A stretch of DNA of 13,644 nucleotides from positions 1 through 13,644 of the forward strand of contig JABXHG010000592.1 in the NCBI GenBank assembly GCA_013393545.1, in the 5' to 3' direction. The notes under the pieces are model-generated. The model worked only from the letters and a program-made list of their open reading frames with translations. It was not told the DNA's origin and did no database searches. Shown in pieces: positions 7,804 through 13,551 of this stretch. The position numbers and the translations under genes were made by a program. Source of the DNA: Alteromonadaceae bacterium. GTDB lineage: Bacteria; Pseudomonadota; Gammaproteobacteria; Pseudomonadales; Oleiphilaceae. How positions within the stretch are numbered: position 1 is the first letter of the stretch; the number at the start of each line of letters is the position of its first letter.

Positions 7804-7920
7804 TGGCTTTGAAGGCCGGGGTACGCTTTCCGGGACACGCTCAAGACATCCGTGTGCGCTTAGGTCGCGCCATCCATGGCGCTCTATAGTCCCGGAAAGC
7901 GTACCCCCGGCCTTCAGCCA
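7804..7920 (-). repeat. Palindromic element copy 1 (reverse orientation)
   Basis: Left arm 7811-7836 pairs with right arm 7889-7915 over 26 bp with a single bulged C; a further TGGCT/AGCCA pair (7804-7808 with 7916-7920) extends it. The 52-nt interior (7837-7888), read on the minus strand, carries the family core: GCGCCATGGATGGCGC, then CTAAGCG, then ACACGGATGT, then GAGCGT. GGA triplets on the minus strand lie at 7873-7875 and 7849-7851, 24 nt apart. It begins 18 bases after the bioB stop and points against the bio genes, so a bioB read-through transcript carries the complement of the GGA loops. Confidence 0.93.
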
Positions 7921-7980
7921 ATCTGGCCACGAGTTACCTACGTGTTTTGGGGTGTTTGAGGCGGCTCCTTGCTTTAGGTC

Positions 7981-8113
7981 ATGCGCCGAAGTAAGCGGCG
8001 AATCGGGTAGGCCTTCCCGGGACTATCTTTCGCCATGGATGGCGAAAGCTAAGCGAACAGGGATGTCTCGAGCGTGTCCCGGGAAGGCCTACCCGGTTCA
8101 CCGCGTTCGGCAT
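7981..8113 (+). repeat. Palindromic element copy 2
   Basis: Perfect 20-bp arms at 8004-8023 and 8076-8095, with imperfect pairing continuing outward (for example GCCGAA at 7985-7990 with TTCGGC at 8106-8111). The 52-nt interior (8024-8075) holds a perfect 8-bp hairpin CTTTCGCC-ATGGAT-GGCGAAAG (8027-8048) and then CTAAGCG and ACAGGGATGT (8057-8066). The GGA triplets are 24 nt apart (8037, 8061). Together with copy 1 it forms an inverted pair filling the bioB-bioF gap. The 83 bases between them (7921-7980 plus arm ends) show nothing I can name. Confidence 0.93.
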
Positions 8114-8157
8114 GGAATAAGGCCTTAGGCGGGCTTTTCACAGTCGATGGTTAATAC

Positions 8158-9339
8158 ATGCGCGACTTTGCAGCAGAAATAGAACAAAGAAAACGGGACG
8201 GCCTATACCGCCACCGCAGGCTGATGTCTGGCCCCCAGCAACCGGCCCTGACGGCCGATGGCAAGCCCTTGTTGTCGTTCTGCAGCAACGATTACCTGGG
8301 CCTCGCCAACGACGCCGGGAACATCGAGGCACTTAAGCAGGCCTTGCCGGAAACCGGGCTAGGCGGCGCGGCCTCGCACTTGGTATGTGGGCACCACGAA
8401 GCGCACCACCAGTTGGAGGAGCGACTGGCAGCATTCACCCAGCGCAGTTCCGCGCTGTTCTTCTCCACTGGCTACATGGCCAACATGGGCGTGATCTCGG
8501 CGCTGGTGGGGCGGGGCGATACGGTGTTTTCGGACAAACTGAATCACGCGTCGATTGTCGACGGCTGCATTCTCAGCCGCGCACGAATGCGCCGGTACGC
8601 CCATGGCGACGTGGCCGCACTGGAAACCATGTTGGCCAACACCGATGGCCATAAAGTCGTGGTGACCGACGGCGTTTTCAGCATGGACGGCGATATCGCA
8701 CCGTTACGGGAGCTGGCCCGGGTGTGCCGGGAGCAGGATGCCTTGTTGGTGGTGGACGATGCTCACGGGCTTGGTGTGCTTGGCCCACAAGGGCGGGGCA
8801 GTGTGCTGGAGGCCGGGTTGTCGGAAGCCGACGTGCCGGTATTGATCGGCACCCTGGGCAAGGCGGTCGGTACCAGCGGTGCGTTCGTCGCCGGGCCCGA
8901 GTGGTTGGTTGAATACCTGGTGCAGAAGGCCCGCACCTACATCTACACCACCGCCATGCCGCCAGCGTTGGCCGTGGCCACCTGCGCCAGCCTGGACCGG
9001 ATCGAATCTGATGACGCACGCCGGCAGCACCTCAATAGGCTGATTGCCGATTTTCGCCTTGGAGCAGGGCAGTTGGGGTATGAGCTGATGCCCTCAAAGA
9101 CACCTATTCAGCCAATTATGATTGGAGACAATTACGCAGCACTGGCTCTCAGCCAGGCGCTGGAAGAACAGGGCATTCTGGTAACCGCTATCCGTCCGCC
9201 CACGGTGCCGTTGGGGCAGGCGCGCCTGCGGGTGACCCTGAGCGCCGCGCATACCACCGAGCAGTTGGACCAACTGTTGGCGGCGCTCGCCAAAGCCCAT
9301 GATCTCGTTGGAAACATTCCGGAGGAGGCGTCCCAATGA
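8158..9339 (+). CDS. bioF: 8-amino-7-oxononanoate synthase BioF
   Basis: PLP enzyme of the alpha-oxoamine synthase family; it condenses pimeloyl-ACP (or -CoA) with L-alanine to give KAPA, the first step of biotin ring assembly. The 393 residues match the family. Seen are SFCSNDYLGLA (40-50), GGAASHLVCGHHEAHHQLE (split GGAASHLVCG, HHEAHHQLE), FSTGYMANMG, the cofactor aspartate/histidine motif VVDDAHGLGVLG (198-209) and the PLP lysine K235 in GTLGKAVGTSGAFVAG. The ATG at 8158 has no strong ribosome site (GATGG only), odd for a first-class operon gene, and follows the long palindromic gap after bioB. The stop overlaps the bioC start (ATGA), so bioF and bioC are translationally coupled. Confidence 0.97.
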   Translation: MRDFAAEIEQRKRDGLYRHRRLMSGPQQPALTADGKPLLSFCSNDYLGLANDAGNIEALKQALPETGLGGAASHLVCGHHEAHHQLEERLAAFTQRSSALFFSTGYMANMGVISALVGRGDTVFSDKLNHASIVDGCILSRARMRRYAHGDVAALETMLANTDGHKVVVTDGVFSMDGDIAPLRELARVCREQDALLVVDDAHGLGVLGPQGRGSVLEAGLSEADVPVLIGTLGKAVGTSGAFVAGPEWLVEYLVQKARTYIYTTAMPPALAVATCASLDRIESDDARRQHLNRLIADFRLGAGQLGYELMPSKTPIQPIMIGDNYAALALSQALEEQGILVTAIRPPTVPLGQARLRVTLSAAHTTEQLDQLLAALAKAHDLVGNIPEEASQ

Positions 9340-10172
9340 ATGCTGCTGAGAAAATTGTGCAGACGTCGGCCTCCACGCCGCCGATGGCAAGCACCGGCAG
9401 CAAGGAATCCATCGCCCGCTGCTTTGGCGGTGCCAGCCGAACATACGACACGGCTGCGCGCCTGCAAAAACGCATGGGTGATACCATGCTGGCCTGGTTA
9501 CCCGAAGGCTTCCAGCCCGATAATGTACTCGACCTGGGCTGCGGCACGGGCTGGTTTACGCGAAAACTGGCAGAACGATTCCCGCAAGCAACGCTGACCG
9601 GCGCCGACCTGTCCCCCGGCATGCTCACTCAGGCTAAAGCCAGCGCCCCGGGCCATACCAACTGGCTCAACGCTGATGCCGAACAGCTGCCCTTGCCCGA
9701 CCAAAGCGTGGACCTCATATTCAGCAACCTGATGATCCAATGGAGCAACCGGCCCGAAGTAATCCTCGCCGAATGCCGCCGACTGCTGAAATCTGGTGGT
9801 ATCCTTGCCGTTTCCACTCTACTCGACGGCACGCTTGCCGAACTCGAAGCAGCCTGGGCCCAGGCTGACCCCGGCCAGCCCCATGTTAACCGCTTCGCCC
9901 GGGAGGCCGATTGGCAGCAGTTGGTGAGTGGCGTTTTACCTGGCATGCAACATCAGGCAGAGACGATAATTTTGCCTTACAATTCCCCCCTGGCCCTCAA
10001 CCGGGAACTGAAACACCTGGGAGCGGGCTACAAGGGCGAGCAACGCCGGCGCACCGTCACCGCCCCGGGCCGGTTTAAAGCTATGTGCCAGGCTTATCCA
10101 AAAGACGAATTTGGGCAAGTTAGCGCCAGCTACCGGGCCGGCTGGCTGTATTGGCAAAAGCCTGAAAGCTAA
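9336..10172 (+). CDS. bioC: Malonyl-ACP O-methyltransferase BioC
   Basis: SAM-dependent methyltransferase that methylates malonyl-ACP so that fatty acid synthesis enzymes can build the pimeloyl chain. Seen are IARCFGGASRTYDTAARLQ (I.R.F..A...YD.AA, the BioC N-terminal signature, about 26-44), the SAM loop VLDLGCGTGWFT (64-75), GADLSPGML (89-97), LPDQSVDLIFSNLMIQW (split SVDLIFSNL) and the C-terminal LKHLGAG. At 278 residues it is longer than the E. coli protein (251), mainly through about 25 extra N-terminal residues. The ATG at 9336 has a near-perfect GGAGGAGG seven bases upstream and overlaps the bioF stop by four bases. In pseudomonads bioH usually sits between bioF and bioC; here there is none. 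Confidence 0.95.
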   Translation: MNAAEKIVQTSASTPPMASTGSKESIARCFGGASRTYDTAARLQKRMGDTMLAWLPEGFQPDNVLDLGCGTGWFTRKLAERFPQATLTGADLSPGMLTQAKASAPGHTNWLNADAEQLPLPDQSVDLIFSNLMIQWSNRPEVILAECRRLLKSGGILAVSTLLDGTLAELEAAWAQADPGQPHVNRFAREADWQQLVSGVLPGMQHQAETIILPYNSPLALNRELKHLGAGYKGEQRRRTVTAPGRFKAMCQAYPKDEFGQVSASYRAGWLYWQKPES

Positions 10173-10216
10173 AACGTAGACGCATAAAACTCCTGCGGTT
10201 TGCATTGAAGATTGCC

Positions 10217-10326
10217 GGTGAGGACGTGGTACTCCTTCCCGGGACTATAGAGGGCCATGGATGGCCCGACCTAAGCGCACATGGATGTTTCAAGCGTGTC
10301 CCGGGAAGGAGTACCACGTCCTCGCC
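10217..10326 (+). repeat. Palindromic element copy 3
   Basis: Arms at 10220-10245 and 10298-10323 pair perfectly over 26 bp, or 29 bp including one G-T wobble (10217-10326). The 52-nt interior (10246-10297) contains GGGCCATGGATGGCCC, CTAAGCG, ACATGGATGT and AAGCGT; the GGA triplets are 24 nt apart (10259, 10283). It separates bioC from bioD. An ATG inside its loop (10261) opens a frame that runs into bioD and can mislead start calling. Confidence 0.93.
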
Positions 10327-10368
10327 ACGCCCCCGGACACTGCAGGCACGACCAGACAAGGACAAAAA

Positions 10369-11073
10369 GTGGCCAAGAAAACCTACTTCGTAACCGGCAC
10401 CAACACCGGTGTTGGCAAAACCATCGCGACTGCCACCCTGCTGGAAGCCGCCAAAGACCAGGGCCTGAAAACCATCGCCATGAAACCCGTTGCCTCAGGC
10501 TGCGAGCAAACCGCCAATGGACTGCGCAACGACGACGCCCTGATACTCCAGACCGCCATCACCGAAGACATCACCTACGACGCCATCAACCCCGTTGCCC
10601 TGGAGCCGGCCATCGCCCCCCATGTGGCAGCACACCAGGCCGGCCAAACCATCTCCGCGCAGCGAATTGTCGGCTTTTGCCGGGGCGCCCAGCTGCGGCC
10701 CTCGGATCTGATGCTGATAGAAGGCGCTGGCGGCTGGCGGGTGCCGCTGAACGACCGGGAAACCTTCGCCGCCGTGCCCCGGGAAATGGGCCTGGGCGTT
10801 ATTGTGGTTATTCCCCTGCAGTTGGGTTGCATCAACCACGCTATGCTCACCGTCGAAGCCATCCAGGCCGACGGCCTGAGAGTGGCCGGCTGGATCGGCA
10901 ACCGGATTGACCCGCAGCCGATGGAATGCGAGCAGGAAACACTGAACTACCTCAGCCTGCACCTGAAAACGCCCTGCCTCGGTGTGCTGCCCTGGATCGA
11001 AGGTAAACCGGACAAAAGCCTGCCGCGCATCCTGAAAAAATATGTGAATATCGAACCGTTGATTGAAAATTAA
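10369..11073 (+). CDS. bioD: ATP-dependent dethiobiotin synthetase BioD
   Basis: BioD closes the ureido ring of DAPA with CO2 and ATP to give dethiobiotin, the substrate of BioB. The 234 residues fit the family. The P-loop is FVTGTNTGVGKT (7-18, K17), followed by MKPVASGCEQ (38-47, the diaminopelargonate-binding lysine region), EGAGGWRVPL (118-127) and VVIPLQLGCINHAMLT (split GCINHAMLT), GWIGNRID. The start chosen is GTG at 10369, with AAGGA (10358-10362) six bases upstream and family homology starting at once (AKKTYFVTGT). An in-frame ATG at 10261 lies inside palindromic element 3 and would add 36 unrelated residues. It is separated from bioC by 196 bases, mostly that element. No terminator is visible after the stop. 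Confidence 0.96.
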   Translation: MAKKTYFVTGTNTGVGKTIATATLLEAAKDQGLKTIAMKPVASGCEQTANGLRNDDALILQTAITEDITYDAINPVALEPAIAPHVAAHQAGQTISAQRIVGFCRGAQLRPSDLMLIEGAGGWRVPLNDRETFAAVPREMGLGVIVVIPLQLGCINHAMLTVEAIQADGLRVAGWIGNRIDPQPMECEQETLNYLSLHLKTPCLGVLPWIEGKPDKSLPRILKKYVNIEPLIEN

Positions 11074-11121
11074 ACAAGGTTGTGCGTTAATAACAGACAA
11101 GACAGTTAAAGGAGCGCGACC

Positions 11122-11367
11122 ATGATCAACAACACACTGGGAATCGGCATACAGGGTATCCAGGATGGCATGGTTGGCATGGAAAACGCTGCCCGGAAAA
11201 TCGCCAGAGGCGGCGCCGATGGCCCGCAGGGCAGTGCCGAAGGGGCCGGTAACCTGGCCGAGCCGATGATTCAACTCAACCTTTATGAACGTAGCGTTGA
11301 GGCGTCTGCGCAGGTGGTGAAAACCGCTGACGAAACCCTCGGAACGCTGCTGGATCTGCGAGCCTGA
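11122..11367 (+). CDS. Small flagellar rod-like protein (N- and C-terminal helices only)
   Basis: An 81-residue protein. The first residues (NNTLGIGIQGIQDGMVGMENAARKIA) resemble the N-terminal helix shared by flagellar rod and hook proteins, and the last (QLNLYERSVEASAQVVKTADETLGTLLDLR, split YERSVEASAQVVKTADETL, GTLLDLR) closely resemble their C-terminal helix, of the type V..KTADE.LGTLL.L. The large middle domain of FlgC/FlgE/FlgG is absent and only a short Gly/Ala linker (GGADGPQGSAEGAG) joins the halves. AAAGGAG (11108-11114) sits seven bases before the ATG, so it is very likely expressed. The next gene, a SprA-related protein, starts 24 bases downstream. Its function is unknown; it could join a coiled-coil axial assembly or act as a mimic of rod termini. 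Confidence 0.8.
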   Translation: MINNTLGIGIQGIQDGMVGMENAARKIARGGADGPQGSAEGAGNLAEPMIQLNLYERSVEASAQVVKTADETLGTLLDLRA

Positions 11368-11391
11368 TCCACATCTGGAAAGGGTTCTGCC

Positions 11392-12054
11392 GTGAACGTT
11401 CTTTCTTCGATTCCTCCTATCTATCCTTCCACCGGTGGCGCCATGCCACCGGCTGGTGCCGTACCGCCTGGCCAGGCGTCCACGGCCACCCGAACCAGCG
11501 CGGCCGGCGAAACCGCAACCGAAGCCAAAACTCGTTCAGCGCCGGCGGTCGGACAAAGTGCGGGAAACAACGACGCCAATCGTGGCACCGAGCAAGCCTC
11601 CCAGCGCCAGAGGGATGAAAGCCGCCAGGGTGAATCTTCTGGTCAACAGGCTAGTGGCCAGAAGAATAACGGCCAGAACCTTACCCCGGACCAGCTAAAA
11701 GAGCTAACCGAACTCAAAGCCCGTGACCGCGAAGTCCGTGCCCACGAACAGGCCCACCAGTCTGTCGGCGGCCAGTACGCCGGCTCCATGTCCTTCAGTT
11801 ACGAACGGGGTCCGGACGGCGCCCAATATGCGGTCGGCGGTGAAGTCTCCATCGATGTGTCGCCCGTTCAGGGGGACCCGCAAGCCACCATCGAAAAAAT
11901 GCGCGTGGTGCGCGCCGCCGCCATGGCGCCCGCCCAACCCTCCGGCCAGGACCGCGCCGTAGCCGCTCAGGCCATGCAGACCATGCTGCAGGCTCAGGCC
12001 GAAATGGCTGCGGGCGAAGACGAGCGGGAAGGCGCCTTGTCGGTATTTGCCTGA
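11392..12054 (+). CDS. SprA-related putative metalloprotease (CJM1_0395-type family)
   Basis: A 220-residue protein. Residues 1-95 are low complexity, rich in Ala, Gly, Gln, Ser and Pro, and look disordered. From about 100 on comes the family domain: LTELKARDREVRAHEQAHQSVGGQYAG (zinc-type HEQAH at H118-H122, split RAHEQAHQSVGGQYAG), then FSYERGPDGAQYAVGGEVSID (split YERGPDGAQYAVGGEV) and QATIEKMRVVRAAAMAPAQPS. These match what I know as the SprA-related family, annotated as putative metalloproteases because of the HExxH-like motif; activity is unproven. The start is GTG at 11392, with GGAAAGGG (11377-11384) seven bases upstream. There is no classical signal peptide. It probably forms an operon with the small rod-like gene upstream. 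Confidence 0.82.
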   Translation: MNVLSSIPPIYPSTGGAMPPAGAVPPGQASTATRTSAAGETATEAKTRSAPAVGQSAGNNDANRGTEQASQRQRDESRQGESSGQQASGQKNNGQNLTPDQLKELTELKARDREVRAHEQAHQSVGGQYAGSMSFSYERGPDGAQYAVGGEVSIDVSPVQGDPQATIEKMRVVRAAAMAPAQPSGQDRAVAAQAMQTMLQAQAEMAAGEDEREGALSVFA

Positions 12055-12099
12055 TTTTCTTTCCTGATTATTTCTCTTTTGATTGCCTGCGTATCCGGT

Positions 12100-12204
12100 A
12101 AGCGGGGTAGGTCTTTCCAAAAATTTGCGGAGCCATGGATGGCGGAGCATAAGCGCCACATGGATGTGCCGAAGGAGCGCTTTTTGGAAAGACCTACCCC
12201 GCTT
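12100..12204 (+). repeat. Palindromic element copy 4 (divergent)
   Basis: Perfect 24-bp arms at 12100-12123 and 12181-12204 enclose a 57-nt interior with GCCATGGATGGC, ATAAGCG, CCACATGGATGTG (a 5-bp hairpin) and GGAGCG. The GGA triplets are 25 nt apart (12137, 12162). The inner arm ends in A/T (CCAAAAA with TTTTTGG) where the other copies have CCCGGGAC. It lies 45 bases after the SprA-related gene. An open frame that crosses it into the acyl-CoA dehydrogenase gene is not a real extension. Confidence 0.92.
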
Positions 12205-12255
12205 GCACCCGGGCTTCAGGATTATTCTTTTGAACAGAAATTTCACACCAGCCTA

Positions 12256-12285
12256 TTGACACCTCTGCTCACCAAAACGTATGTT
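12256..12285 (+). promoter_or_regulatory. Sigma70-like promoter for the acyl-CoA dehydrogenase gene
   Basis: A perfect -35 box TTGACA (12256-12261), an 18-nt spacer and TATGTT (12280-12285) predict a start near 12292, about 100 nt before the ATG at 12394. The long leader in between holds no other recognised signal. Confidence 0.55.
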
Positions 12286-12286
12286 T

Positions 12287-12300
12287 CAAACAAGCGTTTA
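12287..12300. promoter_or_regulatory. PsrA-like operator
   Basis: CAAAC-AAGC-GTTTA fits the PsrA consensus known from Pseudomonas, (G/C)AAAC-N2-4-GTTT(G/C), except for the last base. PsrA is a TetR-type repressor released by long-chain fatty acids that controls beta-oxidation genes. The site overlaps the predicted start of transcription, where a repressor would act, and the gene is an acyl-CoA dehydrogenase. Confidence 0.5.
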
Positions 12301-12393
12301 ACAACAAGCCGTGATGTCGAAACATCACCGTATCCGAGCAAACCCCGAGCAGCCTCCAAACAGGGCGCCGGGCCGTCAACCGAGGTGGAAACG

Positions 12394-13551
12394 ATGCCTG
12401 AATACAAAGCTCCCCTGCGTGATATCCAGTTTGTCATGAACGAGTTGCTCAGTGCCGAGCAGCATTACGCCAGCCTGGAAGGGGCCGAAGATGCAACGCC
12501 GGATATGGTTGATGCCATTGTCCAGGAAGGGGCCAAGTTCTGTGAGCAGGTACTGTCTCCGCTTAACCGAGTGGGCGACGAAGAAGGCTGCCAGCTGACT
12601 GACGACGGCGTGAAAACGCCCACTGGTTTCAAGGAAGCTTACCAGCAGTACGTAGAAGGCGGTTGGCCGTCCATCACCGCCGATCCGAATTACGGCGGTC
12701 AGGGCCTGCCGCACTCCATTGGCCTGGTGATCAGTGAAATGGTGGGCACCTCCAACTGGTCCTGGGGCATGTACCCGGGCCTGAGCCACGGTGCCATCAA
12801 CACCATCGAGGCCCACGGCACCGAGGAGCAGAAGCAGACCTACCTGACCAAACTCACCAGCGGCGAGTGGACAGGCACCATGTGCCTGACTGAGCCTCAC
12901 TGCGGCTCGGATCTGGGCACTCTGCGCACCAAGGCTGAACCGAATGAAGACGGCAGTTACCGCATTACCGGCACCAAGATCTTCATTTCCGCTGGTGAAC
13001 ACGACATGGCTGAGAACATCGTCCACATCGTGCTGGCCCGCCTGCCGGGCGCGCCGGAAGGCACCAAGGGTATTTCCTTGTTCATCGTGCCCAAGTGTCT
13101 GCCGAACGAGGATGGTTCCGCCGGCGAGCGTAACGGTCTTTCCTGTGGCTCGCTGGAACACAAGATGGGTATCCATGGCAACGCCACCTGCGTGATGAAC
13201 TTTGACGGCGCCAAGGGCTGGCTGATCGGGCCGGAGAACAAGGGTCTGAACTGCATGTTCACCTTCATGAATACCGCCCGGATCGGCACTGCCATTCAGG
13301 GTTTGGGCGCCGCCGAGCTGGGTTTTCAGGGCTCACTGGCCTATGCCAGGGAACGCCTGGCGATGCGTTCTCTGAGTGGCGCGAAGAACCCGGACGGCAT
13401 TGCCGATCCGATCATCGTGCATCCGGACGTGCGCCGCATGCTGCTGACTCAAAAGGCCATCTCCGAAGGCGCCCGGGCCCTCATTTACCTGGCCGGCCAG
13501 CAAGTGGATATTGTTCACAGCGGCAAGAAGTACAAGGCCTGCTGTCTTTAG
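12394..13551 (+). CDS. Acyl-CoA dehydrogenase, C-terminally truncated (probable broken gene)
   Basis: FAD-dependent fatty acyl-CoA dehydrogenase of the long (about 600-residue) DmdC/FadE-like type. MPEYKAPLRDIQFVMNELL is the usual start of this subfamily. Family motifs are GWPSITADPNYGGQGLP, the flavin/substrate-binding MCLTEPHCGSDLGTLRTKA (MCLTEPHCGSDLG), GTKIFISAGEHD, HKMGIHGNATC and NTARIGTAIQGLG. After QQVDIVHSGK (to about 13527) homology ends; five unrelated residues and a TAG follow, for 385 residues in all. The YEGT motif with the catalytic glutamate and the C-terminal helical domain are missing, and no other frame restores them before the window ends. ATG 12394 is supported by GAGGTGG five bases upstream; a longer frame from 12079 only translates palindromic element 4. 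Probably inactive unless the window misrepresents the gene. Confidence 0.85.
   Translation: MPEYKAPLRDIQFVMNELLSAEQHYASLEGAEDATPDMVDAIVQEGAKFCEQVLSPLNRVGDEEGCQLTDDGVKTPTGFKEAYQQYVEGGWPSITADPNYGGQGLPHSIGLVISEMVGTSNWSWGMYPGLSHGAINTIEAHGTEEQKQTYLTKLTSGEWTGTMCLTEPHCGSDLGTLRTKAEPNEDGSYRITGTKIFISAGEHDMAENIVHIVLARLPGAPEGTKGISLFIVPKCLPNEDGSAGERNGLSCGSLEHKMGIHGNATCVMNFDGAKGWLIGPENKGLNCMFTFMNTARIGTAIQGLGAAELGFQGSLAYARERLAMRSLSGAKNPDGIADPIIVHPDVRRMLLTQKAISEGARALIYLAGQQVDIVHSGKKYKACCL

Follow-up and report, generated by a model that had tools for sequence, protein, structure and literature searches.

The question raised by the window analysed here, a 13,644-nt stretch of contig JABXHG010000592.1 from an Alteromonadaceae bacterium to which all window coordinates refer, is what the four long palindromes are that lie in the gaps between its biotin genes and nearby. 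A preliminary description had placed them in no described family and had named REP/BIME, ERIC-like and MITE (miniature inverted-repeat transposable element) repeats as the nearest concepts. We favour, with moderate confidence and on the evidence of sequence, another answer: the palindromes would be a dispersed, many-copy form of the RNA family TwoAYGGAY (RF01731), acting as decoy RNAs with a dual CsrA/RsmA site and turning over like small mobile repeats. What the sequences support in this reading is the structure, the constrained strand, the loop rule, the dispersal and the arrangement in pairs.

Palindromes with complementary arms and spacers of 52, 52, 52 and 57 nt (copies 1 to 4, only copy 4 having 57) had been described at the outset, and both the sequence and a repeat finder bore this out. 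The repeat finder gave arms of 29 nt at 97% for copy 3, 29 nt at 93% for copy 2, 24 nt at 100% for copy 4 and 19 nt at 100% for copy 1, where pairing resumes outward beyond an offset. The order of the core elements is the same in all four copies, as had been claimed, and each copy contains CCATGGATGG once, copy 1 on the minus strand, with no further occurrence in the window. Compared with dinucleotide shuffles the folds of copies 1 to 4 have z values of -8.0, -9.2, -11.6 and -7.4, and for each copy none of 200 shuffles folded as well as the real sequence. The covariance model built in this analysis, R1, sets limits which differ slightly from those first drawn; its scores for the window copies are not independent, all four sitting in its seed. 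The copies, with their hairpins as read from the sequence, are the following:

7806..7924, minus strand: copy 1, first of a divergent doublet in the bioB-bioF gap; R1 94.5 bits (in seed), arms I20
7869..7880, minus strand: copy 1 hairpin 1, GCC-AUGGAU-GGC
7846..7855, minus strand: copy 1 hairpin 2, ACACGGAUGU
7988..8107, plus strand: copy 2, second of the doublet, upstream of bioF; R1 110.7 bits (in seed), arms I5
8032..8043, plus strand: copy 2 hairpin 1, GCC-AUGGAU-GGC
8057..8066, plus strand: copy 2 hairpin 2, ACAGGGAUGU
10210..10329, plus strand: copy 3, in the bioC-bioD gap, with an empty site in M. persicus; R1 105.2 bits (in seed), arms I4
10254..10265, plus strand: copy 3 hairpin 1, GCC-AUGGAU-GGC
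10279..10288, plus strand: copy 3 hairpin 2, ACAUGGAUGU
12088..12212, plus strand: copy 4, in the gap between a SprA-related gene and an acyl-CoA dehydrogenase gene; R1 96.3 bits (in seed), RF01731 30.7 bits, arms I8
12132..12143, plus strand: copy 4 hairpin 1, GCC-AUGGAU-GGC, with a GGA/GGA internal loop beneath
12158..12167, plus strand: copy 4 hairpin 2, ACAUGGAUGU

That the four copies are members of a genuine repeat family, with a conserved core, variable complementary arms and mostly intergenic positions, was confirmed by the covariance-model search, which found many further copies in Marinobacter genomes and relatives. A strict core pattern was present in 33 stretches of genome contigs, mostly of Marinobacter; the other carriers were Moritella dasanensis, Saccharospirillum salsuginis, an Oceanospirillales metagenome-assembled genome (MAG) and a Colwellia MAG. 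R1 was seeded with 32 of the 39 listed copies (five Moritella copies and two near-duplicate Marinobacter copies, L014 and L016 minus, were omitted). It matched 11 to 113 times per genome in nine Marinobacter genomes, 148 times among the best 150 candidates in Saccharospirillum, 47 times in the Oceanospirillales MAG, 13 times in Moritella and 0 times in the Colwellia MAG, these counts being rough, as the best 150, 58 or 13 candidates were scored and some matches are opposite-strand shadows of one palindrome. Matches were found in 60 of 61 genomes of a Marinobacter-genus sample, and in 44 of 274 genomes of a class-wide sample (Marinobacter persicus, G001, included). For the comparisons below 213 rows were kept, 144 from Marinobacter and 69 from genomes G011 and G013 (51 Saccharospirillum, 18 G013), after 35 of 248 R1 matches had been dropped for overlapping a better match, mostly opposite-strand shadows; two of the rows (L042) duplicate places of L087 rows. 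Viral spread of the element was rejected, viral contigs holding 0 exact core matches; 18 plasmid records show 60-80% identity to the 7900-10400 stretch, always outside the elements. Of the 21 elements in the 400 kb read of contig C8 of M. persicus (L072-L091), the first 240 kb hold two and the remaining 160 kb hold 19.

The literature on TwoAYGGAY, like all literature cited here, was available in extracts, and is described as those present it. The family was introduced as a probable RNA, probably not cis-regulatory, in the human gut, gamma-Proteobacteria and Clostridiales (Weinberg 2010, PMC2864571). In 2014 it was proposed to bind CsrA, tandem G.A pairs were noted in one of its stems, and the sponge RNAs CsrB/CsrC and RsmX/Y/Z were also named (PMC4333381). 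An improved structure is listed in Rfam 15 (PMC11701678), the stability of the hairpin is treated in a 2025 preprint (PMC11661157), and the extract of a study of Rfam families in Alcanivorax small RNAs leaves TwoAYGGAY unnamed, the element not having been sought in that species (PMC9788540). Nothing on the present repeat was found among the literature matches listed.

When six genomes were searched with RF01731, five of them yielded 12 matches over the cut-off between them, against 0 in 14 control genomes. At these places R1 scored 120, 101.6, 78.5, 74.9 and 71.4 bits in G001, G003 and G011 (three in the last), 39.8 bits in G013 and 21.7 to 26.4 bits at three others (Colwellia MAG, G013), with no match at three, all in G013; the 120-bit element is G001:C8:347470 of M. 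persicus, and at least 10 of the 13 RF01731 matches in G001 coincide with listed R1 matches. The two models converge on the same elements in three genomes, and RF01731 also covers forms that R1 misses. The claim that no described family fits was thus overturned through the relatives, where five R1 elements (G001, G003, G011) pass the RF01731 cut-off, and the window elements are best read as a repeat-like variant of this family. The variant and the family share an outer stem that carries two hairpins with the same loops. Of the 157 copies with GCCANGGANGGC, 56 have consecutive G.A-type pairs in hairpin 1. The variant differs in its loops, which are ANGGAN and so wider than AYGGAY (ATGGAT is commonest), in its long and mostly perfect arms, and in its tens of scattered copies per genome and divergent doublets, neither of which is described in the extracts of PMC2864571, PMC4333381, PMC11701678 and PMC11661157. 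As far as the listed literature matches can show, the new part is this many-copy, paired, strand-specific setting. Other forms were seen beside it: L150 and L160 of G013 are above-cut-off RF01731 matches over the double-hairpin core only (model positions 46-112) and are missed by R1, while in the Colwellia MAG L027 has repeated hairpins without an outer palindrome and L153 and L156 hold two similarly flanked RF01731 copies at a distance of 385 bp.

The loops bring CsrA into the argument. Both hairpin loops fit A-N-G-G-A-N: across the 144 Marinobacter rows hairpin 1 keeps A1 in 144, G3 in 144, G4 in 143 and A5 in 142; N2 is T in 93, G in 28, A in 21 and C in 2, and N6 is T in 129, C in 13, A in 1 and G in 1. 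Hairpin 2 and the 69 G011/G013 rows have the same loop pattern with a few gaps, and the C and the G that close hairpin 2 are conserved in 142 and 143 of the 144 Marinobacter rows respectively. The freedom of N2 in hairpin 1 is not a model artefact, because the 32 seed sequences all had T at this position. From one GGA to the other the step is 24 nt in 114 copies, 25 in 24 and 23 in 8, that is, in all 146 copies with both motifs found, drawn from the 157 of 213 rows with GCCANGGANGGC (133 of 144 Marinobacter, 15 of 51 Saccharospirillum, 9 of 18 G013). CsrA favours ANGGA in a hairpin loop, and one dimer bridges two sites about 10-55 nt apart (PMC6028588); furthermore, an A(N)GGA motif is described, and RsmA binds an RsmZ hairpin whose loop is AAGGAU (PMC4066749). 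As judged from sequence, the elements follow the rule for a dual CsrA/RsmA site, having ANGGA in hairpin loops at a spacing within 10-55 nt.

The stems show which strand matters. The inner 26 stem pairs of the 213 rows comprise 5226 standard pairs, 136 G.T, 12 A.C and 120 other mismatches; when arms were anchored on motifs without model alignment (107 copies), G.T again exceeded A.C (56 vs 4), and 45 of these elements lean to G.T, 2 to A.C and 60 tie. Since a symmetric DNA process would give equal G.T and A.C, the loop-bearing strand is the strand that must fold, as RNA or as single-stranded DNA. The arms, moreover, change together. In the 32 seed copies both-side changes occur at all 30 outer pairs, and over the whole structure there are 343 both-side-change cells vs 107 in shuffles. 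Among 28 ortholog pairs (taken closest first, each copy once, several pairs sharing a gene gap) there are 166 arm pairs altered on both sides vs 32 on one, with 12 complex and 518 unchanged; the single-side changes are 19 G.T, 3 A.C and 10 other. Even in the 15 pairs with flank identity of at least 85% (mean 91%) there are 55 paired and 19 single changes in 390. Slow two-step compensation alone would hardly be so fast, and therefore the arms are probably kept complementary by arm-to-arm correction or by exchange between copies; the comparison of copy 4 with its M. persicus ortholog, in which hairpin 1 is common and the hairpin 2 half differs, fits exchange.

The explanation that we favour starts from the sequences: one strand of each element encodes a long stem opening into two hairpins, whose A-N-G-G-A-N loops, closed by C-G, follow each other at a step of about 24 nt. 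Once a copy is transcribed, a single CsrA/RsmA dimer might bind both loops, one with each of its faces, and the copies jointly would form a distributed decoy for this regulator. The elements would spread and vanish like small mobile repeats, and their arms would stay complementary by correction or exchange, plus selection against A.C on the folded strand. Of these steps transcription, CsrA binding, decoy action and spread by a mobiliser are what we infer. The sponge RNAs CsrB/CsrC and RsmX/Y/Z likewise present GGA motifs to CsrA/RsmA; they are single loci with many GGA sites each, whereas here there are two sites per element and many loci.

The position of the elements among the genes bears on how they could be transcribed. 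The genes of the window (bioB, bioF, bioC and bioD among them, named from Pfam domains and gene order) leave all four copies between genes, as we read them, and the intergenic position first proposed was accepted. Called open reading frames (ORFs) at 10261-11073 and 12079-13551 overlap copies 3 and 4 respectively, and are probably explained by later starts. For copy 3 bioD likely begins with the GTG at 10369, because M. persicus has matching sequence immediately on either side of this codon and lacks the upstream stretch; for copy 4 a later start of ORF 12079-13551 would place it outside its gene. At 10261-10369 a longer ORF, in frame with bioD and running into it, opens at the ATG within the core (GCCATGG), and gene starts may be misannotated on this account. 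ORF calling simply took the longest ORF, and the orientation tally omits 19 bioF-locus rows and 4 rows without two flanking ORFs, which leaves 190 copies; 27 of these share over 60 nt with a called ORF, and part of these overlaps we take to be genes started too early by the rule, as at copies 3 and 4. The 84 single copies (104 minus 20 overlapping a called ORF) are oriented nearly at random: 24 convergent, 18 divergent, 22 sense and 20 antisense.

Several observations weigh against the decoy reading. At gathering cut-offs the Rfam scan of the window gave no match; under a lax threshold copy 4 matched RF01731 at 30.7 bits, below the cut-off of 43, and copies 1-3 had no RF01731 match at E up to 10. 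The Rfam match, by which the preliminary description would have given up the novelty of the family, was thus found in the relatives, whereas the window copies themselves stay below the cut-off. A cut-off scan of 17 element loci likewise returned no RF01731 match, and Moritella has R1 matches and no RF01731 match. The strand signal is no proof of RNA, because G.T wobble is tolerated better than A.C in folded single-stranded DNA too. Paired transversions (86 vs 80 paired transitions) are more than G.U steps alone would yield. Because orientation is near random, many copies are not carried in the right sense by neighbouring mRNAs, and in the 5' flanks of 208 copies promoter-like sites are no more frequent than in shuffles, for which reason an own promoter there was rejected. 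Finally, csrA is present in 40 of 44 genomes with elements vs 195 of 230 without (genome completeness is not given), so that its co-occurrence has no power as a test of the link.

A purely DNA-level mobile repeat of the REP or MITE kind, in which a transposase or recombinase reads the folded single strand with the loops as recognition letters and CsrA takes no part, is possible, if rather unlikely. The high copy number and the near-random orientation to genes would suit it, and so would the strictness of the doublets: pairs at most 400 bp apart are minus-plus in 43 cases, plus-minus in 1 and in the same direction in 0 (43/44 divergent, p ~4e-25 at one in four), and copies 1 and 2 form such a pair, minus then plus, in the bioB-bioF gap. 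This share is not genome-wide, as the Marinobacter regions were chosen around top-scoring matches and those of G011/G013 partly where dense; the contiguous 400 kb of G001 contig C8 hold 5 minus-plus pairs and 1 plus-minus. Local inverted duplication was rejected as the source of doublets, their members (mean identity 0.72 over 44 pairs) being scarcely more alike than random copies of the same contig (0.69 over 190 pairs; in Saccharospirillum 0.74 vs 0.71).

Presence and absence between close relatives speak for mobility as well. The bioC-bioD gap of M. persicus is without copy 3, and AGAC stands on both sides of the copy 3 segment in the window and once at the matching M. persicus junction; this pattern fits insertion and deletion alike, and loss is favoured because three other loci hold an element in this gap. 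Five Moritella dasanensis copies (L006, L009, L021, L031, L033) are nearly identical, several being bounded by ATACCAAT...ATTGGTAT, as if recently mobilised. In the bioB-bioF gap R1 finds an element in 15 of 30 loci, and the minus-plus pair of the window recurs there only in M. persicus. L052 and L057 lack an element in this gap and yet keep apparent outer arm remnants, and two Marinobacter orthologs of the copy in the gap (L051 1262-1464, L071 1232-1430) have hairpin 2 enlarged from within by about 80 bases that include more hairpin-like stretches.

What the DNA-level explanation leaves unaccounted for is the loop pattern, with N2 and N6 free, which is the requirement of CsrA, and its expected mobiliser does not follow the elements. 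PF01797, the Y1 transposase, occurs in 34 of 61 genomes without tracking R1 match counts: G018, G021 and G022 lack it and yet have 57-58 matches of the best 58, whereas G017, with the most (22), has 6 matches. Judged by these counts, the mobiliser is not Y1/RAYT, and a REP/RAYT link was rejected; other mobilisers were sought only in gap ORFs, where a captured one between copies about 550-620 bp apart was not supported, the ORFs of four gaps being dissimilar by eye, with no family search of them. REP/BIME/REPIN elements with RAYT are scattered palindromes between genes that form inverted doublets, and in this the present elements resemble them; here, in contrast, the loop region rather than the stem is conserved, and there is no tie to a Y1 transposase. 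MITEs are similarly short, non-coding and scattered, and the inverted ends round several Moritella copies recall them, but the arms vary among copies and no common terminal repeat was seen in the Marinobacter flanks listed. The concepts named as nearest in the preliminary description leave the two CsrA-type loops unexplained, and the REP link through Y1 transposase was not found.

That the elements are cis-regulatory RNAs in leaders or tails of neighbouring genes is very improbable. Rfam types RF01731 as Cis-reg, copies 2, 3 and 4 of the window lie sense and upstream of genes, and places are fairly stable, 99 of 213 rows being tied by flank similarity into 27 groups; besides, sense exceeds antisense 34 to 21 when the ORF overlaps are kept among the 104 singles (20 vs 13 in Saccharospirillum overall). 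Without the overlaps this shrinks to 22 vs 20, convergent and divergent gaps are used as freely, and such random orientation to flanking genes counts against cis-regulation. Furthermore, in 14 of the 15 element-bearing bioB-bioF loci the copy nearer to bioF runs antisense to it, and the extract of Weinberg 2010 (PMC2864571) marks the family as probably not cis-regulatory. An ordinary transcription terminator or an integron attC-like palindrome without special function, suggested by long stable hairpins between genes, is hardly credible given the T-poor 3' flank (T 0.12-0.18 in the first six 10-nt bins, Marinobacter), the conserved asymmetric double-loop core and the occurrence also at divergent gene pairs, though no search was aimed at attC motifs. 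About 60 nt 3' of the palindrome are A-rich and T-poor in Marinobacter and Saccharospirillum copies, with recurring GCACCAAA-like words.

The decoy reading and mobility may also be joined: a mobile palindromic repeat might carry the dual CsrA site as cargo, so that its spreading built a genome-wide sponge which tunes or escapes the global regulator, with the divergent pair as the spreading unit. We offer this tentatively and hold it unlikely on present evidence; were it true, dispersed repeats would be a direct part of the Csr/Rsm circuit.

With these results the orphan RNA family TwoAYGGAY gains many more members and a loop rule in position-by-position agreement with the CsrA site, in a genome setting which is new relative to the extracts of PMC2864571, PMC4333381, PMC11701678 and PMC11661157. 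The arms offer a natural system for studying how bacteria keep palindromes near perfect, given the 166 paired against 32 single changes. Should CsrA bind the copies, each genome would have dozens of small repeats helping to determine how much of a global regulator is free, and repeats that are usually dismissed as junk would belong to a regulatory circuit.

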